DNA of 64,000 bases from the NCBI GenBank assembly GCA_012862575.1, contig BLSF01000089.1, positions 1 through 64,000 of the forward strand, read 5' to 3'. This document shows positions 17,645-54,861 of this stretch, one piece after another. The notes beneath the pieces were generated by a model that was given only the letters and a program-made list of their open reading frames with translations, ran no database searches and was not told the origin of the DNA. Made by a program: the position numbers and the translations under genes. Numbering within the stretch: position 1 is the first letter of the stretch; every line of letters starts with the position of its first letter. This stretch comes from Parietichytrium sp. I65-24A. Taxonomy: Eukaryota; Sar; Bigyra; Thraustochytrida; Thraustochytriidae.

Positions 17645-19228
17645 ATGGGCAGGTTCTCGCTGGATGGGTACACCGACAAGTGTGTGCGCATGCTGAATGA
17701 TATGGTGAGTTGCTGGGAAGAGGGGCGCGCACGTAGATGACTCTGGAGTGCTAACGGAAGGTGCTGGACGGGAAACGGATATTATCTGCAGATCAACCCG
17801 AAATATGTCAAAGCCGACAAGCAGGTGCCGGCAACTTTGCTGAGACATTGCGAGGGCATTGCGTAAGTTTGCTCAGGCTGGTTTCTCTGACCGAGGCGAG
17901 AAAGCTGACTAATCGATGTGTCTTTCCGCGGGCCAGCTTCATTACGATCTGGAAGGCGGGATTGTTCTTCCTTGGAGGAAATGCAGGCGCTGGCTGTGTG
18001 ATTTGCAAGGTCAAGGACGAAAGCGACCCAAGGGGCTGGCGTTGGTCTGGTCCCGCCGCCGTTGTGTGCGGTGGACTTGGCGGCGGATTTATTTTCGGCG
18101 CAGAAAAAATTGACTCCATGATCATTTTAAACACCAAAAGTGCCGTTCGCGCTTTCATGGGCGACGGCCAGGTAACTTTTGGAGGAAACTTGAGCTGTAA
18201 GTGAACAAACACGAGTAGGGCATTGAAAAATGGTGAATTGCAACGACAACAAATGTCTCACACCGATGATTTACTCTTTCACCAGTGGCTGCCGGTCCCG
18301 TTGGTCGCGACATGGAGGGCCATGTCGGCGTCAGCAAGAACAAGGAAGTTGTCGCTGCCTACAGCTACTCCAAGGCGATGGGTGCTTACATTGGCGCGAC
18401 ACTAGAGGGTGCCTTTTTGGTGTCGCGGAACGACGACAACAAAAAGTTCTACAATGATCCAAGTGTTACACCCGAGAGAATTTTGAGCGGACAGATCCGG
18501 CCGCCGCTCAAGGTGGACACACTACACCGCGAGCTATACGCCATCCATGACAGGAAAGGAGCGTACTCGGGATTGGAGTCGTCGCACCATGCCTCGTCAT
18601 CTCAAGAGCCGTCTCAGTTCGCCAGCGCCGTTGCGCCTCCCCCTCAGCAAGAATACGGTGGTGGCGAGAGCCTTCAACCAAACTGGCGTAAAGTCTTCAC
18701 GGCCGAAGGAAAGCCTTACTACCACAACACAGTGACCAATGGTAAGTTGCCTCTTTGTAGTGTGTTCTCGAAAGGTGCGAAGGAAGAATGGCTCACATAT
18801 TTATGACCCCGACCCGCGCCGCACTTGGCTGCACAGAGACACGATGGGATGCGCCGCTTGCGCAGCCTGCGCAAAGTGCTGCCCCGATGCCAGCAAAGGC
18901 ATCACCTTTCGAGAACGACTATTCCTCAGGTGGAAATATTCCCGTTGCAGCCCCCGCGTCAAGAGCCATGCCAGTTGCGAGCGAATCAAATCCATTTTCT
19001 AGCACGCAATCAAATTTGCCCCAGCGTCCAGTGCCTCCTGCAAGGCCGTCTCCGCCGACGCGCCCAAGCGCCCTTGCATTGTACGACTTTGTTGGATCCA
19101 GTGCCGAGGAGCTCACATTCAAGGCAAACGATAAAATGATCGTGCTTGACAAGAGCGATCCGAATTGGTTCCGGTGCTCGCTAAACGGCAAAGTTGGTCT
19201 CGCACCATCAAATTACTTGCAGTTGTAG
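17645..19228 (+). CDS. SYLF (Ysc84/SH3YL1)-WW-SH3 actin/membrane adaptor
   Basis: Five exons: 17645-17704, 17792-17862, 17937-18196, 18286-18741 and 18837-19228. They join to 412 residues; introns are 74-95 nt. Residues about 1-205 form a SYLF domain as in yeast Ysc84 and animal SH3YL1: ATLLRHCEGIAFI, then FFLGGNAGAGCVICK, WSGPAAVVCGGLGGGFIFG, GNLSLAAGPVGRDMEG and KKFYND. A WW domain follows (LQPNWRKVFTAEGKPYYHN through ETRWDAP); it is split by the last intron, and the splice restores its second Trp. A proline-rich linker (QRPVPPARPSPPTRPS) precedes a C-terminal SH3 domain (ALALYDFVGSSAEELTF ... PSNYLQL). SYLF domains bind phosphoinositides and actin; Ysc84-type proteins act at endocytic actin patches. 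SYLF plus SH3 is standard, and the inserted WW domain is less common. Confidence 0.93.
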
Positions 19229-22082: not shown

Positions 22083-24677
22083 ATGCTCAGACGAGGCTGG
22101 AAATCTCTCGCTGCGAGAAATGCAGTGGAGCTGCAAACTCGAACGCTGTCCAGCAGGGCGGAGAAATGGAGCGAGTGGAAGAAGCTGGCTGCCAAAGAAG
22201 CGGGCGGTGATCCCATGGAGAAGCTCGTGTGGAACACGCCGGAAGGCATCCCCGTCAAGCCGCTGTATACCGCGGAGGACGCTGAAAAGCTGGAGGAACC
22301 GTCGCCACCGGGCGTGTACCCTTTCTCGCGAGGACCGCGAGCGACTATGTACACACACAGGCCGTGGACTGTGCGCCAGTATGCTGGGTTTAGTACTGCT
22401 GAGGAGTCGAATGGTGAGTTTCGCACGAAGGAGCGGGTTGCTTATGTTTTGGTGGTTCGCTGACTCTGCTTTGCTGATGATGTGGCGTGCCTTGTGCGAT
22501 GCAGCTTTGTAAGTTTGAATTGCAGGCCCTTTGACGTGTTGCTGGAAGGCGTCCACGGCGTGCTTTGCCCACGTTCGATGAGGCGATACTGACTCTTTAT
22601 GTTATGTGTTGCGTTTCCCTAGCTACCGCAAAAACGTCGCTGCCGGACAGCAAGGTTTGAGTGTGGCATTTGATTTGGCAACTCACCGCGGGTATGACAG
22701 TGACCACCCCCGCGTCATTGGTGATGTCGGTATGGCTGGTGTCGCCGTGGACTCTGTTGAGGACATGAAAATTCTATTTGACGGCATTCCGCTCGACAAG
22801 ATGAGTGTGTCCATGACCATGAACGGTGCAGTCCTGGTACGTTGATCTATGTCTATTCCAAGCAGCACAAGACCAGAACCAGGTTCTGCAAAGTTGCTTG
22901 ACGTGCTTTGCTTGCTTGCTAACTTGGGACTCTTCTTCTTCCCTACGTGTGTATGTGTATGTGTGTTTGGTTTGTGCTACAGCCTATCCTGTCCTTTTAC
23001 ATTGTCGCCGCGGAAGAGCAAGGCGTGGATCAAAGCAAATTGACTGGGACGATTCAGAACGATATTCTCAAAGAATTTGCTGTCCGCAACACATTCATCT
23101 ACCCCCCAGAACCGTCGATGCGCGCTATCGCTGATATCTTTGGATACACTGCACACTTCATGCCAAAGTTTAACTCGATCTCCATTTCGGGCTACCACAT
23201 GCAGGAGGCCGGCGCCGACAGCAAGCTCGAGCTCGCGTTCACCATCGCGGACGGAATCGAGTACGTCAAGACCGCCTCCGCTGCTGGGCTGGACGTGGAC
23301 AAGATCGCTCCGCGACTCAGTTTCTTCTTTGCCATCGGAATGAACTTTTACATGGAGGTGGCCAAGTTGCGCGCTGCCAGAAAGCTGTGGGGAAAACTGC
23401 TTCGCGAGCGCATTGGCGCAAAGAACCCCAAGAGCTGGCTCCTACGCACCCATTGCCAGACCTCTGGATATTCGCTAACGGAGCAAGATCCTTACAACAA
23501 TGTGATCCGCACCACCATCGAGGCAATGGCAGCTGTTTTCGGCGGCACTCAGTCCCTGCACACCAACGCCTTGGATGAGGCGCTTGGTCTGCCAACCGAA
23601 TTTTCTGCCCGTATTGCGAGGAACACCCAGCTCATTGTGCAGGAGGAGACCGGGATCACCAAGGTCGCCGATCCATGGGGTGGCTCTTACATGATGGAGA
23701 AGCTGACCGATGATCTTTACAACGAGGCTCTCAAGATCATTAACGAGATTGACGAGCTCGGCGGTATGGCGAAGGCTATTGCCAGCGGAATGCCAAAGTC
23801 TCGCATTGAAGAGTCTGCTGCGCGCAAGCAGGCTCGCATCGACAGCAAGGTGGACACTATCGTTGGAGTCAACAAGTACCGCCTCGCAAACCCAGAGCCT
23901 ATTGACGTTTTGTCTATTGATAACACTCAGGTCCGCAACTCGCAGATTGCAAGACTCGAGCGCATCCGCGCTGAGCGTGACGAAGCTGCCTGTCAGGAGG
24001 CTCTCAAGAAGCTCGCAGAGTCTGCTTCGATGACCGAGTCCACCTCCTCCGGCGAACACCCTATGAACCTTCTCAAGCTCTGCGTTGACTGTGCCCGCTT
24101 GCGCTGCACCTTGGGCGAAATTTCTTCCGCGCTTGAGTCCAAGTGGGGACGTCATGTGCCTCATTCCTCAGTTGTACAGGGCGCATACCGTAGCGAGTAT
24201 GGCGGCGATGCCGAGAATACCACATTTGAGGATGCCGTCAAGCGCGTCGAGGCGTTTGCGGAGGAGAACGGTCGCCGCCCTCGTATTCTTGTCGCCAAGA
24301 TGGGTCAGGATGGCCATGACCGCGGTGCCAAAGTTATCTCCGCTGGCTTCAGTGACATCGGCTGGGACGTGGATGTCTCCAGCTTGTTTTCTACCCCTGA
24401 AGAGATCGCCCAGCAGGCCATTGATGCGGATGTTCACTGCGTTGGCTTGAGCTCCCAAGCTGCTGGCCATAAAACTCTTGCCCCAGCACTCGTGCAATGC
24501 CTCAAGGAGAAGGGCGGCGAGGGCATTTTGGTGGTCGCTGGAGGCGTCATTCCGCCTAAAGACTACCAATTTCTCTATGACAAAGGTGTGGCAGCAATCT
24601 TCGGACCTGGAACCCCAGTTGTCGATGCAAGCAACCGGGTCCTCGATGCTGTTGAGAAAACTTTGACCAAAGAATAA
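22083..24677 (+). CDS. MUT: Methylmalonyl-CoA mutase, mitochondrial
   Basis: Exons 22083-22413, a 4-nt micro-exon 22505-22508, 22623-22836 and 22983-24677, giving 747 residues (human enzyme about 750). Without the micro-exon, exons 1 and 3 are out of frame; with it the junction reads EESNAFYRKN, the family consensus. The N-terminus ([18 protein letters not shown]) looks like a mitochondrial presequence. The substrate-binding barrel follows ([65 protein letters not shown]). The C-terminal B12 domain contains DGHDRGAKV with cobalt-ligating His at about 628. The enzyme converts (R)-methylmalonyl-CoA to succinyl-CoA with adenosylcobalamin, finishing propionyl-CoA breakdown from odd-chain and branched substrates. 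Confidence 0.97.
22505..22508 (+). other. 4-nt micro-exon (CTTT) of methylmalonyl-CoA mutase
   Basis: CTTT is flanked by GCAG on the left and GTAAGT on the right. Exon 1 ends one base into a codon (..AAT G), and the following exon starts C TAC CGC. Only G+CTTT+C yields GCT TTC, Ala-Phe, the residues expected between EESN and Y in this family. Flanking introns are 22414-22504 (91 nt) and 22509-22622 (114 nt). Confidence 0.85.
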
Positions 24678-35593: not shown

Positions 35594-38094
35594 TCATAAT
35601 CGCGCTGCGTTTTGGCGATCGCGCAGTTCGAGCTTGGCAATCGTCTCGCGATGCACTTCGTCTGGGCCATCCATGAAGCGCACTGTCCTCGTTCGAGCAA
35701 ACCAGGAGGCGAGCGGAAAGGCTTCGTGCAATCCGGTGGCTCCGTGGACTTGAATGGCCATGTCCATCACCTGCATGGCGACATTCGGGACGATTACCTT
35801 CAACATGGAAACGTACTTTCGCGACTCGTTCGAGCTCATGGTGTCCATAGAATGCGCAGTAGCCAAAGTCAAGAGCCGGGCTTGGTCAATCAGGATCCTG
35901 CAATCTGCAATGTCCTTCCGAATCGTTCCCATAGCTGACAAGGTGCTCCCAAAAGCTTTGCGGGTCAGCGCCCGATCCATCATGAGCTCAAGCGACCGCT
36001 CCGCTAAGCCAACTGTGCGCATGCAATGATGGACTCGGCCTGGACCAAGTCTTATCTGCGCAATTTGGAAGCCCATGCCTTCTTCGGCGACGAGATTAGA
36101 AGCTGGAATCTCAACGTTCTCAAATTCCACCTCAAAGTGGCCATGTGGAGCGTCGTCGTAGCCGTATATACTCATGGGTCTAATTATTTTTACGCCAGGC
36201 GCATCTTTCGGGACAATGACTACCGAATGTCTCTTGTGACGTGGAAGAGAGTCTGGGTCCGCGCTATTCATACCAGTGTTTCCGAGCACCAATAGGAGTT
36301 TCAAACGCGGATCTCCGGCGTTGCTGATCCAGTGCTTTTTCCCGTTAATCACATACTTCGTGCCGTCTGCGGTCTTGGCGATTTCGGTTGAAATATTCAC
36401 TGCGTCGGAAGATGCAACTTGCGGCTCGGTCATCACAAATGCGCTCCGAATTTCGCCTTGCTTGAGAGGCTCAAGCCATTCCTCCTTTTGTTTCGCGGTG
36501 AAGAAATGGTAGCCAACATCCATGTTGCCGGTATCAGGAAACTGGCAATTAAATACTTCAGCACACCATAGGTTCCTTTTTACATAATCGCGTCGTTCGA
36601 GAATAACAAGAATTTGAGTCAACCACCTCCTTTTCAAATCGGCCACCAACGTATTTGACGAATCACTTACCGTCCCATCTGCTCTGCAAAGGCAGCATAC
36701 TCGCAATGCGTAATCCCGGACCACTCCGGGCGAAATAAATTCCACAGCCCTTGCTCTTTGGCCTTCCTTTTCAACTCTTCCACAATTGGAGGAATTTGCC
36801 AAGGGTTGCCGCTTTCGCGAAATTGAGCTAGCTGCCGCTCGTACGTTGCCTCGTTTGGATAGATGTGCTCGTCCATAAAAGCGCAAAGTTTAAAGAAAAG
36901 GCTTCGTGCAGGGCCTGACATTTCAGGAATCGCGGTGATTGTTTGAGATGCCGCGTTTGGGGTTTGGGAATGGTGCATCGGAAGCTTTCTTAGGGCATGA
37001 TTCCCTGGGTCTGCCTTTAGAGCGATGTCCGCGGCGGTGCGTCCGAATGCAAAGATGACTGGGGTGGTGAAGGTTTTGGCAATGTGCGCAGAAGAAGCGT
37101 TACCGGATTTGTACCTGGCATACACGCCTCGGAGAATGCAGGCAGTGCGAAATTGGGCATATACATTATAGGCGGGCAGCAGGGGGTACGCAGAGCCAGT
37201 CAGCATCCCATAGTAATAGCAAACTGCCTCCAGGGGGGGGATTCCTGGCGCGAGAGTCCCGTCAGGCAAGTATGGGGCTCCCGTTAAACTAGGTATACTT
37301 GTGTCGCTCTTTCTCAAGTACCCCATGAAACAGTACGCAAGGTCTGCAAGAGGGTCTCCGATGGTGGCGATTTCCCAGTCCAACACCGCAACAACGCGCG
37401 GCTCCGTAGGGTGGAAGATCATATTGTCCATTTTGAAGTCCCCGTGCACAATTGTAAGCTTGTGCTTTTGAGGTGCGTTCTGGTCTAGCCAATTCTTCAC
37501 CCCTTCCATCACCACGTCAGTTGCGTTCCCAGGTGGGTCCACTGCACTCAGTTTGTAATTCTTGTACCACGCATTGATTTGCCTCCGGAGGTAAGGAACC
37601 TTTCGCTTCTCGAGGGGTGCAAGCTCACCAAGGCCGACTTCGTCCGGGTCGAGGGAATGCAGCTTGGCGAGCACGTCGACAATGGACTTGTACACCATTC
37701 CTCGGTCTTCAATGGACAGCTTTGGCAGCGCATTGTCAGAGAAGACGCGACCCTCCACAAATTTCATCAAATAAAACTCCGTGCCCATCACCTCAGAATC
37801 CGTGCAGTAGGCTATGGGTTCAGGGACCGGGTACCCTTGCTTGGCGAGAGCGCTCATGACCTTGAACTCGCGATCAATTTGATGCGCTCCCGGCAGCAGC
37901 TTGCCCGCGGGCTTCCTTCGAAGCACGAAAGAGCCTCGCTGGCTTTCGATCTTATAAGTCGGATTTGACTGCCCCGCCTTCAACCTGAACACCTGGCCGT
38001 TCTCCAAAGACGTCTTCACATTCTCCAAACCTTTGGACTGCAGCCACTTGGCCAGCCTATCGGCGGCAAAGTCCTCGGGCTGCACAAGCTCCAT
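35594..38094 (-). CDS. ACAD10/11-type protein: APH-like kinase fused to acyl-CoA dehydrogenase
   Basis: Two exons, 36671-38094 and 35594-36575, intron 95 nt, giving 801 residues. The acceptor was chosen because it leaves five residues between MGR and EVFNC, as in the family. Residues about 1-350 are an aminoglycoside-phosphotransferase-like kinase (IVHGDFKMDNMIFHP and VLDWEIATIGDPLADLAY hold the catalytic and metal-binding Asp). Residues about 400-801 are an acyl-CoA dehydrogenase (EVFNCQFPDTGNMD, MTEPQVASSDA, INGKKHWISNAGD, RLGPGRVHHCMR, and DGPDEVHRETIAKLEL near the end). In mammals the pair phosphorylates 4-hydroxyacyl-CoAs and converts them to 2-enoyl-CoA for beta-oxidation. The C-terminus ARL fits the PTS1 consensus, so a peroxisomal site is likely. 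The acceptor has a weak pyrimidine tract. Confidence 0.93.
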
Positions 38095-39033
38095 TTCCTC
38101 CGCGCAAGAGCCAACAGCACAACCTCACAGCCTTCAGCTTTCCCAGTGAATCTTCCTCGCGGCGCACTCGCGAGCCGTCGAAGCAGCTCTGCAGCTCAAT
38201 CAAGGCAATCAAGACGAAGACAAAGATCAAGATCAACTTTGCAAACGATTGATTACTGGCACACATACACATCGTCGTAACAACGCTGTCGGACTGAGTA
38301 CTCGTAACACGTAACACAAGCAATCCATCACAGCCCAAGTCTCCACGAGAGCACACTCGACTGGCGGACATCGACACTCTCTTATCTTGATCACATTCTT
38401 GATCAATCAATTGACTGTGAGTTTCTCTTGTCCTAGTACAGCACGTTCGCAAGTTGGAGGCAGGAACGAGAAGATACGTGGTCGCTGCGAAGGCCGAAAA
38501 CCTTGAACTTTCAAGCTCGAAGCAGTGACGGAGCCGGACAGCTATTTGTAAAGTGGTATCAGCTGCGATGGAAATGTTTGGAGATGTGCTTGATTAATGA
38601 AGGACGCGTCTGCGAGATTTGGCTGCACTTCGATTTTTCAATGAAGAGAGATGGGGAAGATGTGGAAGGATAGCAAATGATTTTTTGAAAACTTTGATCA
38701 CGGCCTTAGGTAGAGTTTCTCGGGGAAAGATACGCTAGCATTGCTGTTAACTCTTGGTCAATCAACACCGTTTCACCGTGATTGAGCGGCTCCGGTGTTT
38801 CCCCGAGCTGAAAGCCTTCGCTGATTCCGACTTTTGGCAATGTCTGTACTAGGCAACATTTCAATTTTTGAAGGAACTGATACCATCCGTCAGTGGACGT
38901 AGATACCTCCTGCCGAGAAAGGCTCAGAACTTCCCTCCAATCCGATTGGCAAACAGGTTTGACTCAGTCTTTGGAGTGATGAGAAAGCTTGCCGAGTTCC
39001 CGCGCTTATCATCAGTAAAGTATGATGCGACTC
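38095..39033. other. Intergenic region
   Basis: About 0.94 kb between the start of the ACAD10/11-like gene and the stop of the next minus-strand gene. No gene or clear repeat seen; it should hold the promoter of the former. Confidence 0.55.
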
Positions 39034-44918: not shown

Positions 44919-45892
44919 TTATGGTAAACTTCCATTGTTCTGAGGCCAATGCCGAACATTGTGAAAGACCGACACTGTGGAGGAGGAGTCAGCAGAGTTC
45001 GGACAAATACCTGCATGTCACAGCGCTTTTCACACTTACCATTCGCCTCGTCAAAATAGTTTATGTTGATATTTTTTGCCAGTTTTTGACCGAGCCTGTC
45101 GATATACGTATGATAGAAGAAATCGCGTTAGTGGACCTACAATTGCTGCCTGCGTTTCGTGTATCGTGTATCATGCGCGCAACATTTACATACCTTCGTA
45201 GAGTCTTCATGTCTCGCGAGCTCTTCTTCGTCAGCGTCACTCTATCGATTTTAACGCCGTCGAGAACAAGGTGGTAACCAGGCACTGAATTTGGTGTTTC
45301 GGGCCGGCCAACTACCTTTTCCTTGCTCAAGCGAATGTAGATGTTGTGGTACGCGCCAGTGCTACTTCTCGGCCCGACCACGAACGAATACGTCGTTGTG
45401 CCCTCATCCAGGATATATATCCGCTCGTTCCTGTAGTTTATTATCACTGCACAGCTGTAGCAAAAGATCATCACCAAATATACAAACAAACCCGTCTCGC
45501 GCTGTGAATTCGTCACGAGAAATAAAAAGATGATCAGACCAGTGATGAAGCAAACGAGCTCGCCCCAAAACTTTTGTTTGTACGGCACTCGAAGCGTGAA
45601 CACTGCGCAAGGAAAACGAGTCAGCTCCTCACCCCCGTCCACATTCTCACTCCCCTGCCGCCCCAACCAGTCAGTCTTTCTTACCTCGCGACCGATCCTC
45701 GTAGGTCAACCCAAGCTGGAAGGGGTAGAACGGATTCTTTGCAATCTCCGCTTGCAGACTAGCCACACCAGAAAAGTTCTTCTTCGACACCAGCTTCTTG
45801 AGTCTATGCGCACCGTTCCGGCGTCCGTCAGTTCACCGTGCTCGCCAATTCGCCTAGCGCGTCTGCGACAACGGCACTTACCTGTTCCACAT
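44919..45892 (-). CDS. TMEM249-like protein (CatSper channel auxiliary subunit family), with an apparent 1-nt frameshift
   Basis: Five exons inferred on the minus strand: 45882-45892, 45685-45803, 45194-45602, 45040-45096 and 44919-44974; introns 78, 82, 97 and 65 nt. Motifs along the chain: NPFYPFQLGLTYEDRSR, then VFTLRVPYKQKFWGELVCF and a hydrophobic pair, HNIYIRLSK, GYHLVLDGVKIDRVTL, KTLRRLGQKLAKNIN, and RHWPQNNG. This order recalls TMEM249, a small two-helix subunit of the sperm CatSper Ca2+ channel. In the fourth exon a run of four T (plus strand 45060-45063) shifts the frame, so the literal reading stops at 45051-45053. With one base fewer, the exon reads NYFDEAN, the splice is in frame and the total is 651 nt (216 residues). 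Either a sequence error or a real truncation. The first exon (11 coding nt) is the least certain. Confidence 0.72.
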
Positions 45893-47358: not shown

Positions 47359-49041
47359 ATGGCTGCTGACAAGGTTTCAAAGAAGAGGCGCAAGCAGGAG
47401 GACGACGGTTTGGATGAAGAGGCAGCGGCGCAGCAGAATGTAGTCGACTCCTCGAAGAAGAAGAGCAAGCCGAAGAAGGCCAAGGTTGCTCAAGATGATG
47501 GCGCGAAGGACGACGGGGAGAAGGAGCAAGGCGAGGAAGTAGATGATGGCGCGAAGAAGGGATTCTTCTCGGACATGAGATTTAGCCAGCTGGAGCTCTC
47601 AGAGAAGACGCAGAAAGCGCTCAAGGAGGGAGGATTCGACAAGCTCACACAGATCCAGTCCAAGGCGATCCCGCCGTTGTTGCAAGGGTGTGATTTGATC
47701 GGAGCTGCCAAGACTGGGTCGGGAAAGACGCTAGCGTTTTTGATTCCGGCGATCGAGCTGCTCGCCAAGGTGCAGTTCAAGCCGCGGAATGGTACAGGCG
47801 TGGTGGTGATCAGCCCCACTAGGGAGCTTGCATTGCAAATCTACGGAGTGGTGCTGGAGATCTGCAAATATCACTCTCAGACTCACGGAATCGTTATCGG
47901 AGGAGCGAACCGCCGCAGCGAAGCGGAGCGTCTCCAGAATGGTGTCAACCTTTTGGTCTCCACACCGGGAAGGCTTCTCGATCATCTTCGCAACACAAAG
48001 GGGTTTCATTACAAGAACTTGCAGTGCTTGGTCATTGATGAGGCGGACCGCATCTTGGAAATTGGTTTCGAGGAGGACATGAAACAGATTATTAAGCTTT
48101 TGCCGACCGAGCGCCAAACTCTTCTTTTTTCCGCAACGCAAACAAAGAACGTCGAGGACCTTGCTAGGTTGTCCATCAGGAACAAGCCCGTCTACGTCAG
48201 TGTCCACGAACAGGAAACGGAGGCCACCGCAGAGGGCCTGGAGCAAGGATACGTGGTCTGCCCAAGTGAGATGCGGTTTTTGCTACTATACACGTTTTTG
48301 CGCAAGAACAAGAAGAAGAAGGTCATGGTCTTCTTCTCCTCTTGCAAGTCGGTTAAATACCACTCCGAGCTTCTCCAATTCGTAGACGTCCCAGTGAAGG
48401 AGATCCACGGCCAACAGAAACAGCAAAAGAGAACTACAACTTTCTTTGAGTTTTGCAACGCAGAGTCGGGAACCTTGCTCTGCACGGACGTCGCTGCTCG
48501 TGGGTTAGATATTCCGAATGTGGACTGGATTATTCAGTTCGACCCTCCAGATGATCCAAAGGAGTACATCCACCGCGTCGGACGAGCAGCCCGCGGCGCA
48601 AACGGAAAGGGCCGTGCGCTCCTGTTCCTCATCCCTTCTGAACTCAAATTTTTGCAATACCTTCGCAAGGCGCGGGTCACTGTAAATGAGTTTGAATTCC
48701 CGGCAAACAAGGTTGCCAATGTACAGACCCAGCTGGAAGATCTGGTGAGCAAGAACTATTACCTGATGCGCTCTGGCAAAGACGCTTATAGGTCTTACTT
48801 GATGGCGTACTCTTCGCATTCACACAAAGACATCTTTGACATCCACAATCTCGACCTCCAGGCAGCTGCCAAGTCGTTCGGCTTTACAGTGCCCCCACCG
48901 GTCAACTTGAACCTCAAGACTTCGGGCCGAACGGGCCGAAACCGCGACAAGAAGAGCCAGTCATCGACGGGCCATGGCTTCAGCGCAAACAATCCGTATG
49001 GAAAACGGAGTAAAGACGACAAGCGCCAATTTGTTTACTGA
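47359..49041 (+). CDS. HAS1: DEAD-box RNA helicase Has1/DDX18
   Basis: 560 residues from the first ATG (47359, [12 protein letters not shown]), intronless. A lysine-rich acidic/basic N-terminus suggests nucleolar targeting. Helicase motifs appear in order: Q motif region ([14 protein letters not shown] ... LTQIQ), motif [10 protein letters not shown], Ia PTRELALQ, Ib TPGR, II DEAD, III SAT, IV region [25 protein letters not shown]. The C-terminal part ([30 protein letters not shown], then [22 protein letters not shown]) is diagnostic of the Has1/DDX18 group. In yeast Has1 is required for both 40S and 60S ribosome biogenesis. The tail [11 protein letters not shown] ... [12 protein letters not shown] is basic, as usual. 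Unlike its neighbours it has a 5' flank of tandem repeats. Confidence 0.96.
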
Positions 49042-50141
49042 GATACCTCGAGTTCCTGTCAAAAGTAATTTTTTTTTTCAAAAATCCAGAAATCAGACGT
49101 TTTTCATGTGTTGCGCGTGAGCTCGAGCGATTCTTTTATTCACTAAATATACACAAGTGATAGATTCCCTGTGCTGGAGAATAGGTGTTCCTTCCATGTG
49201 TATCAACGAGCAACCTCTCTTGTAGAGTGGCGAAACTATCTCATTCACAAAAGAGCGAGTATCGGTAAACTCCGCAACAAAAACAGCGAGCAGCCTACAG
49301 CACCAGCATTTTGTTTTGATGGATGAAGTGTGCAAGGAATGCAGAGCTAGCACTCTTCCATATACAAATAAAATATTGTGCCAACGCAAAACGGAAGGAG
49401 GAGATGAAATGAAATGCTGGAACACCGTGGTCCTGGACCGCATTTGAAAGACAAATTGACACCAGCCGACCCGATTGTTGACCAACTCATGGCGCGCACG
49501 AACAGTCGTAATAAAGACCGGCAGGTTTTAGTGGATGGAGCTAAGCGAGTGTGAGGCTCCCATTTTCATTCTGACCTTCCTCCATCCGAGAGCCCCATGT
49601 GAGGGCAGCTGGCACAAAGGGCAACATGTTGTAGCTACTTGAACGTTGGCTGGCAGCCACTCGCACTGTGGCACGGAGGACATTGACTCAACCTCTCAAG
49701 CAATCACAGTCAAGCCATGCAGCTGCAGCTGCGAGTCCAAAGTCGTCCGCCATTTGCGCCCCTCAGGGATGAAGGATGAGGGATGCAATGAGTACAAAGT
49801 CTTCGCCGCATTTTCTTACTCTCGAAATCACAGCCAATGCAATGCAACGCAACGCAACGCAAAAGGTAATGCAATTCGGCAAGAAGGCACAGAGCTTGCG
49901 ACTGCAGGGGCAGTGTCAATCCATCCACATTCATTGCCGCAATACCTTTACCATGCGCAGTAACAGCAGTGTAAACGTTGGAAACGCGAAACGTTGGGAT
50001 TAGTACCATTGGTACCGGTACTACACCTGTGCACTTGTATCGACAATAAGGTATTTCTCTTTTCTCTCTCTCTGTCTTGTTTGCTGTCTGTGTATGTTCA
50101 ACTTGGACTTGAACTTGGATCCTTCTTCTGTGCCTCTTGTC

Positions 50142-50171
50142 ATTGTGCCATATTGTGCCATATTGTGCCAT
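50142..50171. repeat. 10-bp tandem repeat, ATTGTGCCAT x3
   Basis: Three perfect consecutive copies about 0.5 kb upstream of the carotene synthase ATG. Confidence 0.9.
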
Positions 50172-50227
50172 TGCCTCATAGTCTGCTGTGCCTCGTGAAA
50201 GCCTGAGACTCTTGTTCGCAGCGAACG

Positions 50228-50266
50228 GGCCAACGGAGAAGGCCAACGGAGAAGGCCAACGGAGAA
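50228..50266. repeat. 13-bp tandem repeat, GGCCAACGGAGAA x3
   Basis: Three perfect consecutive copies, then a truncated GGCC copy, in the carotene synthase 5' flank. Confidence 0.9.
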
Positions 50267-50682
50267 GGCCAGCGCGACGACCAGGACCAAAGGATCACAG
50301 CTTCAAAGGTTTTAAGGTTCAAAGAACAGAAAGCCGCCCACAGCGTCGTTGGGAAGTCAGGCGGAGCCCATGCAATAGCACGTGTCACGAGCTGGGAGCT
50401 GCGAGAGGCGCTATTTTGGTCGTCTTTGTTGTTGTTGTTGTTGTTGTTGTCGTAGTTTATGCTCTGAGTCACAGAGTTGTAGAGAGAGAGGAGAAGGCGT
50501 CTGGCTTTCACGGCGAATCTACGCGGTGGCTCTCGGCAGTCGGTTTGCGAGGTTGGCTCTCTCACCTCGCTTGATTTGAGGTTGAGAAACAATCTCGACG
50601 TCTCATCGCAGAGCTCGCGATGCGCAGTGCTGAAGTGGCATTGTAGGAGTAGAGAAAACGTGTGCCGGAGCGGCTGGTCACA

Positions 50683-53600
50683 ATGCTTCAGGCGAAAGTG
50701 TTGTGCCTGTGGGCACTGTCGCTGCTCGCTGTGCCCTTGAGAGCTGGCGCTAGTATTGGCAGTGCGCTGGAGCAAAGCGCGCCTGGAGAGAAGCACATTG
50801 TAGTCATTGGTGCGGGGTATTCGGGCCTTGCAGCTGCATGCGAATTACGGAGGATTGGGTATCGTGTGACAATCGTGGAAAGGAATGAGAATGTTGGAGG
50901 TCGGGCGTACCTGGTGCAGACCGAGGGCGGGTTCACATTCGACGCGGGCCCGAGCTGGTATTGGATGCCAGAGGTTTTTGAACAGTTCTTCAAAAGATAC
51001 GGGAAACAAGTGTCTGATTATTACTCGCTGACCAGGTTGGATCCGGCGTACAGAATCATCACTTCCAATGAGCCCTCGTCAAATCTTGATGTTCCCGGCA
51101 CTTGGGATGGCTTTCTCGACTGGGCCAGTGGTAATTTTCAAGAATCTCGTGCGGCGCTCAATATCGTGTTTCAAGAAGCTAAAGAAAAGTACGAGAAAGG
51201 GGTCTTTGACTGGATCTGGAAACCGATGCTCACTTTAGCAGATATGCTTGACGTGGACCTAGCCTGCGCGGCGCTCAAATACGACATGTTTGGAAGATTT
51301 GTGGAACATTTGGGAAAGTACATAGCAGACAGCACCCTCCTCACCGTCTTGAAGTGGCCAGTCATATTCATTGGAAGCTCCCCAGAGGAGGCGCCCGCTC
51401 TGTATTCGCTAATGACCTTCGCAGGACACGCTCTTGGGACTTGGTACCCGTCGGGTGGCATGGCAGCCCCCGCTCGGGCCATGGGACAGCTAGCTACAGA
51501 GCTTGGGGTAGACATTAGGCTCAATGCGCAAGTGACCCAACTGGAGTTCGGCGGTGGGGCTGGCGACCAAGTCACTCGAGTATGTCTCGAGGACAAGTCT
51601 TGCGTGGAGGCTGACGGCGTCGTGGCAACTGGCGACTATCATCACATTGAGCAGGACTTGCTTCCCCCGCACTTGCGTCGATACGGAGAAGAGTACTGGG
51701 ACCGTCAAGTTTTGTCTCCTTCGTGCCTGCTATTTTACCTGGGATTTGATCGCAAGATCGATGGTCTTTTGCATCATACATTCTTCTTTGACGAAAGCCT
51801 TGACGATCACTTGCATGCTGCGTTTGTCGACCATCGCCACACCGACAAACCGGTCTTTTACGTTTCCGCCACCTCAAAAACAGATCCCCAGGTCACACCA
51901 GGTGGTCAAGGGGAGGCTCTCTTCGTACTCGTTCCAGTCTCTTACCAGCTTAATGGAACCGATACTAGCGCGTTGCGAGAGGCCACATTGGACATCATTC
52001 TAACAAGGATGGAAGTCGTGCTCAAACAGAATTTACGCGCGTCTCTTGTGTACAAAAAATCCTACGGGTCGTCAGACTTTGCAAGCGAGTTTAACGCGTT
52101 CCGGGGGAACGCATTTGGACATGCGAACCTTCTCTCACAGTCTCTCATTCTCAAACCTACCATGGATTCTGTGGTGAACAACATGGTTTTTGCGGGCCAT
52201 TTGACAAACCCGGGGCCTGGAGTTCCTCCAGCGATCGTTTCTGGAACGGTTGCCGCCCAGCTTTTGCACGGGAAGCTTTCTCCGGACCAAGGCTTGCTGG
52301 GCCTGTCGCCTCTAATGCTTCTTTTTCTTGCCATTGGCGTGATTCACGCTGTTGGCTTCCTATACCTGTACGTCTCGAAACGACGATGGTCTTACGTTCT
52401 CTGCACGCGCTTGCTTTTCCAGCACGGGCGCACGTATTTTGCTGCGGCAACACTAATGAACACGCAGCGCTTTCTCGACACTGCCGCCATGTATGGTCTC
52501 TTCCGAGTCACCGATGATCTCGTGGACAACGAAGACTCGAGCGAAGACCGAAAGAGAAACTTGGACGCGTTTATTTCCGGTTTCTGGAGGTGCTGGCAAA
52601 GCGGAGTTGGGGACTACACAATTCACCCTACACTCCCTGCGATCATTGAAAGCGCTCACCGTCACAAGTACCCACGCGCGCTTTTCGACAAGTTTTTCCG
52701 CTCCATGCGTATGGACGTGGAGCACATGCAGTGCATTACCCTGGACGACACGATGGAGTACATGGAGGGAAGTGCCGCAGTCATTGGCGAGTTTATGCTG
52801 CCAATTCTGATGCCGTCCGCAACAGAGACAGAACGGTCAGCTGCAATGCCTCACGCTAGAGATCTCGGCAATGCGTTCCAGCTGACGAATATGATCCGTG
52901 ACATTGGAGAAGATCTGGATCTCGACCGCCAGTACATCCCCGTGAGAGCTTGCCAAAAGCACCACGTGAACATCCGAACCCGAGATTGCTCGCAACCGGG
53001 CTTTGCACGACTGATCGAGGACATGTTCCAGGTTGCGGATCAACATTATGCGTCTGCAGAGATTGGGGTGGAGATGCTTCCATTAGATGTCCGCGATGTA
53101 ATCAAGGTCGCGATGCTTGCATACCATCGCATCCATGAAAAAATCCGCAAAGTGGACTATGACATCTTTGCCGCACGAGTGAGGGTGCCATTTAAAGAAA
53201 AACTTGCCCTTCTCGTCCGTACCGTGCCTAGAACAAAGCTTGCGAGGATATTCTTTACGGAGGTATATGCCCGAGCGCTTTACCTTGCGACCCTCCCAAC
53301 AACCTTGGCGCTGGCTGCTACACTGGCGTTCACCACGCTGGTTCGTGTGCAGACCTGTACTTATCTCTACTTTCACGCAATTTTTACCTTACCGGCCTTG
53401 ATGATTCTGCTGTGGGTAGCATTTCGGATTGTGTTGGATGGCACTCCACAGCAAATGTTTCATTTGCGAGACACGGCCGCGTGGACCGCGTTGCTTTGCG
53501 TTGTTGCAACTGTGTACACCACGCCATGGGACAATTTCTTGGTCTACAAGCATATTTGGGGCTACTTTCCTAACAGAGTTTGGTTCACGCTGGGCTACGT

Positions 53601-54861
53601 TCCCGTCGAAGAGTATGCCTTCTTCAGTCTCGAGACGATGATATGCGGAACTCTCTGGCTGTGCGTCTTTAATAATTCGCAAACCTTGCATTTGAAAAGC
53701 CAGGCTCGAGCGAGTTTACCCATGAGACTGCGATATCTTGGCGCCGCAGGCTTTGGCGCCATGTTTCTGTGTGGGGTGTACTTGGCGACACAAACAAACG
53801 AAGGCTTTTACCTGGGGCTAATAATATCTTGGGCTGCGCCGGTGTTGGGGATTCAGTGGATCTTTGGAGCGTCCATTCTCTTGCAACACGCGGGGTCAAT
53901 CTTTACGTGCATATTCACGAGCACGGGGCTACTTTGCATGGCAGACCGCTGGGCAATTCGGCATAGGATTTGGTGGATAAATTCGTCTTTTACCCTCCCG
54001 CAGGTGTTTTTCAAAGATCTTCCACTTGAGGAGGCCACGTTCTTCTTACTGACTTCGACCATGTGTACGTTTGGGCTCACGCTTGCAATGGTTGTTACAA
54101 AGTACCATCGGAGCCAGAAGGTTCCCTGGCTGCAAGCTGTCCAGCGCGTGCTAGAGTGGGAGTACAGGGCAAGCCCAGCCACCTGTTCGGCAGAAAAACG
54201 ACGGTTTTCTCGATTTGATCAGCAAGAACTTCTTCACAGGCGCTCTCGGAATTACAGAAAATGGTTTCTTTTGAGCTCCGCTCTAGTTGGGACTTTGGGT
54301 GTGGTCTCTCGCGGAAGCATTGTTTTTACTTGGAGCGCTGTTCTTTTAATTGCGCTAGGTAGTTTTGTGAGGATCCTCGTAGCCCGCGCAGAACCTTTTC
54401 AGATTTTCGGTCTCTTGGTCTCAAGTCTGGGGTTCCTATCGCTCGCCCACTATTGGGGTTTGACGATGGCTTCGGTTGCCAGTGTGGTTATCTTGGCCTT
54501 GCTTTTGGGAGATGTTGTGAGTGATGCGCATGTCACAGGTTTCCAGGTCCTCTGTATTTTCACGATTCTGACCCTCCAACCTCGCCATGTTATTGACGCC
54601 GCATCGTTGATTGGCGGCGAGCAATATCTCCCTGGCGTGTTTGCGCTATCGGAGGTAGCGAGAGCCATGCTGCTTGGCTTTTCATGGACATCTCACAGAG
54701 ATACGATTGAGTTGCTCCGTGTCGCCAGCTGTTCAATCACGGCGAGCGTGTTCCCTCTCTGGATATGCCTGGCGCTGCTATGGGCAAGCAATTTTGTACA
54801 TCCTGGAGCCAAGCGAAGAAGTGGCATTCTGCCACATCATTCACAAGGCAAGCGAAAGTGA
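50683..54861 (+). CDS. crtIBY: Trifunctional carotene synthase CrtI-CrtB-CrtY fusion
   Basis: Intronless, 1392 residues from ATG 50683. The N-terminus (MLQAKVLCLWALSLLAVPLRAGA) is a signal sequence or anchor. Residues about 40-530 are phytoene desaturase: dinucleotide loop VVIGAGYSGLAAACELRR, VGGRAY, FDAGPSWYWMPE, and signature FAGHLTNPGPGVPPAIVSG near 505. Residues about 575-865 are phytoene synthase, with Asp-rich motifs RVTDDLVDNE (about 609) and RDIGEDLDLDRQYIP (about 740). Residues about 880-1160 are a CarR-type lycopene cyclase, a duplicated membrane domain with PVEEYAFF (about 974) and PLEEATFF (about 1114). It should take geranylgeranyl-PP to beta-carotene in one chain. A further 190 residues or so (about 1195-1382) form several extra hydrophobic helices of unknown role. 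This fusion order is the hallmark of thraustochytrids; fungi use a separate CrtI with a CrtYB. Confidence 0.97.
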   Translation: MLQAKVLCLWALSLLAVPLRAGASIGSALEQSAPGEKHIVVIGAGYSGLAAACELRRIGYRVTIVERNENVGGRAYLVQTEGGFTFDAGPSWYWMPEVFEQFFKRYGKQVSDYYSLTRLDPAYRIITSNEPSSNLDVPGTWDGFLDWASGNFQESRAALNIVFQEAKEKYEKGVFDWIWKPMLTLADMLDVDLACAALKYDMFGRFVEHLGKYIADSTLLTVLKWPVIFIGSSPEEAPALYSLMTFAGHALGTWYPSGGMAAPARAMGQLATELGVDIRLNAQVTQLEFGGGAGDQVTRVCLEDKSCVEADGVVATGDYHHIEQDLLPPHLRRYGEEYWDRQVLSPSCLLFYLGFDRKIDGLLHHTFFFDESLDDHLHAAFVDHRHTDKPVFYVSATSKTDPQVTPGGQGEALFVLVPVSYQLNGTDTSALREATLDIILTRMEVVLKQNLRASLVYKKSYGSSDFASEFNAFRGNAFGHANLLSQSLILKPTMDSVVNNMVFAGHLTNPGPGVPPAIVSGTVAAQLLHGKLSPDQGLLGLSPLMLLFLAIGVIHAVGFLYLYVSKRRWSYVLCTRLLFQHGRTYFAAATLMNTQRFLDTAAMYGLFRVTDDLVDNEDSSEDRKRNLDAFISGFWRCWQSGVGDYTIHPTLPAIIESAHRHKYPRALFDKFFRSMRMDVEHMQCITLDDTMEYMEGSAAVIGEFMLPILMPSATETERSAAMPHARDLGNAFQLTNMIRDIGEDLDLDRQYIPVRACQKHHVNIRTRDCSQPGFARLIEDMFQVADQHYASAEIGVEMLPLDVRDVIKVAMLAYHRIHEKIRKVDYDIFAARVRVPFKEKLALLVRTVPRTKLARIFFTEVYARALYLATLPTTLALAATLAFTTLVRVQTCTYLYFHAIFTLPALMILLWVAFRIVLDGTPQQMFHLRDTAAWTALLCVVATVYTTPWDNFLVYKHIWGYFPNRVWFTLGYVPVEEYAFFSLETMICGTLWLCVFNNSQTLHLKSQARASLPMRLRYLGAAGFGAMFLCGVYLATQTNEGFYLGLIISWAAPVLGIQWIFGASILLQHAGSIFTCIFTSTGLLCMADRWAIRHRIWWINSSFTLPQVFFKDLPLEEATFFLLTSTMCTFGLTLAMVVTKYHRSQKVPWLQAVQRVLEWEYRASPATCSAEKRRFSRFDQQELLHRRSRNYRKWFLLSSALVGTLGVVSRGSIVFTWSAVLLIALGSFVRILVARAEPFQIFGLLVSSLGFLSLAHYWGLTMASVASVVILALLLGDVVSDAHVTGFQVLCIFTILTLQPRHVIDAASLIGGEQYLPGVFALSEVARAMLLGFSWTSHRDTIELLRVASCSITASVFPLWICLALLWASNFVHPGAKRRSGILPHHSQGKRK

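Follow-up and report, generated by a model that had tools for sequence, protein, structure and literature searches.

A putative 4-nt micro-exon in a methylmalonyl-CoA mutase gene of an apparent thraustochytrid

Positions 22083-24677 of the 64,000-nt window (the whole stretch of DNA analysed) very probably form an intact nuclear methylmalonyl-CoA mutase (MCM) gene with four coding exons, the second of which would be the 4-nt CTTT, with the introns on its two sides spliced separately. This reading is supported by sequence, family conservation, route enumeration, splice-site scores from the same genome and shuffles taken together, and the use of the CTTT exon in the transcript, as far as the genomic letters can indicate, is very likely real.

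Gene model and identity of the mutase

The initial annotation had placed CTTT at 22505-22508 between GCAG and GTAAGT, and all of these bases were found at those positions. The parts of the predicted gene are as follows.

22083-22413, + strand: exon 1, from the start codon to a phase-1 G (last bases ..TCG AAT G); from sequence and the spliced CDS
22414-22504, + strand: predicted intron 1, 91 nt, GTGAGT..TGCAG (end ..GATGCAG); donor 10.2 bits, acceptor 5.9 bits
22505-22508, + strand: putative micro-exon CTTT, 4 nt; from sequence, frame, routes and shuffles
22509-22622, + strand: predicted intron 2, 114 nt, GTAAGT..CCTAG (end ..TTTCCCTAG); donor 11.7 bits, acceptor 0.7 bits
22623-22836, + strand: exon 3, first bases CTACCGC; from sequence and the spliced CDS
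22837-22982, + strand: intron 3, 146 nt, GTACGT..ACAG; from the spliced CDS and the splice-site set
22983-24677, + strand: exon 4, with the remaining mutase domain, the B12-binding domain and the stop codon; from homology and Pfam

Bordered by AG and GT (CAG-CTTT-GTAAGT), CTTT lies within the micro-exon size range for internal exons, up to 15 nt, and it finishes an Ala codon and supplies the first two bases of a Phe codon. With CTTT included, the spliced CDS comprises 2244 nt, i.e. 747 aa plus stop, with no internal stops and with N-A-F-Y as the junction residues; when 22413 is joined directly to 22623, the frame is shifted and a stop follows after 122 residues. Inclusion of CTTT would accordingly be needed for the frame, for a conserved protein segment and for a working enzyme.

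On its domains and homology, the product is assigned as a methylmalonyl-CoA mutase. It covers positions 2-512 of the 512 in Pfam MM_CoA_mutase PF01642 (E 1.8e-233) and matches the C-terminal B12-binding domain PF02310 (E 8.9e-18), and the exon 4 frame matches human MUT with E 2.6e-238, the human MUT alignment starting at residue 17. GQDGHDRG, read directly in the product, is taken here to be the DxHxxG motif of the C-terminal B12-binding domain. Searching the 42.5-Mb genome (G000) at the protein level gave three matches, all of them exons of one mutase gene, which is the sole copy matched. Three partner genes were also found in the genome. One is a carboxyltransferase gene at 48590-50400 (-) of contig C37, apparently coding for propionyl-CoA carboxylase beta (PCCB), with four introns of 77-100 nt that all begin with GTAAGT and each have the profile-predicted length. 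Contig C45 carries a MeaB/MMAA-type gene, and C3 a gene for cobalamin adenosyltransferase.

Conservation at the junction was assessed against 80 bacterial mutases, the best 80 of at least 592 relatives, whose longest matching frames were aligned with the window protein. One of them (L007) has no letters at the junction, and counts are therefore given over 79. The second residue encoded through the micro-exon is F in 79/79 of these proteins and the first is A in 74/79 (K in 2, R in 2, N in 1), in agreement with the earlier claim that CTTT supplies the missing bases and gives the N-AF-Y family consensus, with the reservation that the set was found with a query itself containing A-F and does not sample the family neutrally. 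Residues 105-125 occupy neighbouring alignment columns, free of insertions, and gaps within residues 100-125 occur in L007 only, so that length is constant across the family at this point. The conserved F follows the RQY tyrosine, presumably active-site Tyr89 in the Propionibacterium enzyme, at a distance of 12 residues. Among solved structures, K-F stands at the junction in human mutase and A-F in the 1req and 6oxc chains. The match to the human and bacterial enzymes (PDB 8gju, 2xij, 1req, 6oxc) runs through the junction and over exon 4, whereas human mutase carries K-F against A-F in the present gene, and the bacterial mutases come from single open frames, unlike the four-exon gene. A scan of viral contigs gave no relative, and the homologues found were bacterial only.

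Several other features of the window were recorded. A single 1402-residue frame at 50653-54858 (+) joins an amine-oxidase/phytoene-desaturase-like (Amino_oxidase) part to a squalene/phytoene synthase, a fusion that resembles the trifunctional carotene synthase (CrtIBY) of thraustochytrids; the apparent assignment of the organism to this group is based on the fusion and on a guess in the initial annotation. A gene starting at about 17690 (+), with at least three short GTRAGT introns, encodes at 18270-18803 (+) a Ysc84 domain and, after it in the same frame, a weak match to WW that at 26.3 bits falls short of the 26.9 cut-off. At 35597-38124 (-), an ACAD10/11-like gene has APH kinase-like and acyl-CoA dehydrogenase parts across a 95-nt intron with the acceptor AAG, and 45064-45705 (-) matches TMEM249, a CatSper auxiliary subunit (E 8.4e-11).

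Splice sites and probable order of intron removal

The yardstick for splice-site strength was a set of 18 introns of the same genome placed by homology, of which eight lie in the window (two in spermidine synthase, one in CNNM, three in Ysc84, one in the ACAD10-like gene, and mutase intron 3) and ten elsewhere in the genome, in the propionyl-CoA carboxylase beta gene and chaperonin-family genes. The eight window introns were placed with their donors in view, a bias of the curated set. Among the ten introns from elsewhere, seven junctions fall at exactly the profile-predicted intron length, and all seven begin with GTAAGT (including PCCB intron 3, 98 nt); the other three (C68, the first intron of C16, and C25) needed a 3-nt shift with the donor in view, C25 being the least certain. 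In this sampling of the genome, 6 junctions were analysed among 20 matches. Other means of finding introns were tried and dropped: a gene finder based on codon usage, which trained its own splice sites, gave implausible introns, an improved codon model was weak (about 0.12 nats per codon), and EM bridging of adjacent ORFs yielded 14 pairs, many of them implausible, and was replaced by the homology-placed introns. Three of the 14 pairs entered the curated set, namely the two in spermidine synthase and mutase intron 3.

Curated introns start with GTAAGT (15), GTACGT (2) or GTGAGT (1), all fitting GT[A/G][A/C]GT, and 17 of the 18 end in YAG; they range from 71 to 217 nt (median 95.5 nt), with 17/18 no longer than 146 nt. 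The introns of 91 and 114 nt on either side of CTTT therefore resemble others of the genome in length, as had been proposed. Their donors score 10.2 and 11.7 bits, values reached by 0.40% and 0.24% of window GTs, and the acceptor before CTTT scores 5.9 bits; the exon 3 acceptor at 22622 is mediocre, its 0.7 bits being reached by 52% of window AGs. Judged against the 18 curated introns, the flanking splice sites follow the species consensus, with the exon 3 acceptor as the weak member. Candidate branch sites were located in intron 1 (CTGAC at 22460-22464 and CTGAT at 22474-22478) and in intron 2 (CTGAC at 22589-22593); CTRAY-like motifs occur within 60 nt of the 3' end in both introns flanking CTTT and in 4/7 curated window introns checked.

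The two introns would be removed as separate units. Micro-exons, according to passages of PMC8831610, are of a size that keeps the spliceosome from acting on both flanking introns together, so that the introns compete and one waits. With only 4 nt between them, the two splice sites of CTTT could not be occupied simultaneously, which implies that the introns would be removed one after the other. Intron 1, with its stronger 3' site (5.9 against 0.7 bits), would probably be the first to be excised, creating an exon of normal size that could then use the GTAAGT at 22509. Use of CTTT is envisaged as constitutive.

A variant of the micro-exon reading holds that CTTT is skipped frequently or under regulation, with inclusion giving the enzyme and skipping giving a 122-residue product and probably transcript decay. 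The good donor of intron 1 (10.2 bits) could be joined to 22622 over 209 nt, within the range seen (longest 217 nt), at the cost of the frame; however, since 17/18 curated introns do not exceed 146 nt, the short introns should win, and frequent or regulated skipping is considered quite unlikely. At the splice junction, AATG-CTTT-CTACCGC corresponds to inclusion of CTTT and AATG-CTACCGC to its skipping.

Alternative routes, chance expectation and rival readings

Routes from exon 1 to exon 3 were enumerated with GT-AG, GC-AG or AT-AC ends, introns of at least 40 nt, donors at 22381-22600, acceptors at 22440-22680 and, for two-intron routes, a middle exon of 1-40 nt, which gave 20 single-intron open-frame routes and 448 two-intron routes. 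The initial annotation's assertion that the two exons cannot be joined in frame consequently holds for the exact boundaries 22413 and 22623 and fails as a general statement, as 20 single-intron routes stay open. Family length is restored by 2/20 single-intron and 17/448 two-intron routes, and N-x-F-Y together with family length is obtained by the CTTT route only. Both length-keeping single-intron routes lack F at position 112: one uses donor 22418 and gives N-GD-Y, and the other combines donor 22446 with acceptor 22650, replacing everything between N110 and the QG of exon 3. One two-intron route with F at position 112 was rejected, as it combines AT-AC and GC-AG introns around a middle exon of 36 nt and loses the family residues next to the F. 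Twelve products were scored against a profile built from the 80 bacterial mutases, with 1237.0 bits for the CTTT route, 1229.1 bits for donor 22418 and at most 1221.0 bits for the other ten.

The most serious reading without a micro-exon is a single 205-nt intron from the unusual donor at 22418 (GTTTCG) to 22622, with N-G-D-Y instead of N-A-F-Y. This route is in frame, open and of exact family length, and its product scores only about 8 bits below that of the CTTT route, but its donor scores -12.0 bits, a value at least equalled by 91% of window GTs and without parallel among the 18 curated introns (0/18), and it lies 4 nt inside the strong GTGAGT donor; moreover, the product loses the F found in all 79 homologues, and TGCAG-CTTT-GTAAGT is left to chance. 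It is accordingly regarded as very improbable. The earlier claim that a micro-exon is required had overlooked this in-frame alternative with its atypical donor and lost F; what stands of that claim is that the micro-exon is the best solution by routes, sites and residues. A junction bearing AATGCTTTCTAC would contradict the donor-22418 reading, and a junction AATGGTGA-CTACCGC would contradict the CTTT exon.

The extent to which chance could produce such a solution was estimated from dinucleotide-preserving shuffles of the intron interior only, with the outer ends fixed. A route of one or two introns, with a middle exon of at most 40 nt, that used consensus sites and restored both family length and N-x-F-Y arose in 11/20,000 shuffles; when any GT and AG were allowed, such a route arose in 61/1,000, a rate of loose-site rescue that places the weight on consensus sites combined with the residue match. 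In a narrower shuffle test, AG-N4-GT restoring F was found in 1,204/20,000 shuffles, and in 412 of them with the family residue before F as well; with consensus sites the corresponding counts were 5/20,000 for F and 2/20,000 for F plus the family residue. The pattern YAG-N4-GTRAGT occurs four times in 448,000 strand-bases, the CTTT site included, which corresponds to about 0.001 in the 109 permitted positions. Among its three other occurrences, one is a spermidine synthase donor; the four also include TAG-TTTT-GTAAGT at position 6783 of L083 (about 56783 of contig C1 of the genome, +).

Across 224 kb, YAG-N(1-6)-GTAAGT spacings are not in excess (0.15 per GTAAGT against 0.18 in 10 shuffles), and there is thus no clear independent sign that tiny exons are in general use; no general habit is claimed here. 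For YAG-to-GTAAGT spacings of 7-12 nt, the raw figures show a small surplus (0.22 per GTAAGT against 0.16 shuffled).

Least probable is that the sequence or its assembly is wrong, or that the gene is decaying, with one long intron at 22414-22622 and a stretch lost near the junction. An indel would also appear as a frame problem there, but a one-base fix yields N-A-Y and leaves the protein one residue short of the 79 homologues, whereas four bases are missing. The remainder of the 747-aa product has an uninterrupted frame and follows the family along its full length, the genome search matched no second gene, and partner genes exist.

Known micro-exons and significance

CTTT belongs to a rare but already known kind of exon, micro-exons of 1-5 nt being documented elsewhere. 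Passages of PMC8831610 describe an RT-PCR-validated 4-nt micro-exon in a rice gene, within a wider set of plant micro-exons of 1-15 nt; it shares with CTTT its size, its coding nature and the fact that the annotated protein is truncated without it, whereas the plant cases are many and have RNA evidence and the present one is a single case, apparently in a protist, known from genomic sequence. The 1-nt exon of Arabidopsis APC11, as presented in sections of PMC4674806, is a constitutive ultra-small exon, as CTTT would be, that annotation had overlooked; it was tested by reporter constructs, in contrast to the 4-nt exon predicted here from sequence. The reasoning closest to ours is that for the 1-nt exon of the Fusarium P450 CYP621A, where, in portions of PMC12940212, out-of-phase exons in a conserved motif pointed to a tiny AG/GT-bounded exon, although 20-24 genes and SRA reads stand behind that exon and a single genome behind CTTT. 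The same portions note that exons of 2-5 bp are known in Arabidopsis, Drosophila and humans, and the parts of PMC8831610 and PMC12940212 drawn on here agree that micro-exons are commonly missed in annotation, which fits the initial annotation's expectation that gene predictors would overlook CTTT. Among open-licence PMC papers, none paired 'micro-exon' or 'microexon' with 'thraustochytrid', and the pairing with 'stramenopile' occurred only in two papers, whose titles concern homo-repeats and fungal receptors; the main text of PMC10101102 contains neither 'intron' nor 'exon'.

If the reading is true, an ultra-small coding exon is present in an apparent thraustochytrid, and the mutase gene is misread unless a 4-nt exon is allowed for. 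Its correct reading matters because odd-chain fatty acids were favoured when a thraustochytrid was given medium without vitamin B12, an effect which, in the passages of PMC12734794 that treat it, the authors linked to propionyl-CoA and discussed together with methylmalonyl-CoA mutase. A regulated CTTT switch of the B12-dependent mutase, in which skipping would leave propionyl-CoA for odd-chain fatty acids and so tune this thraustochytrid lipid trait, is an unlikely proposal. Beyond the enzyme itself, the locus would offer a compact test of spliceosome behaviour at two splice sites separated by four bases.
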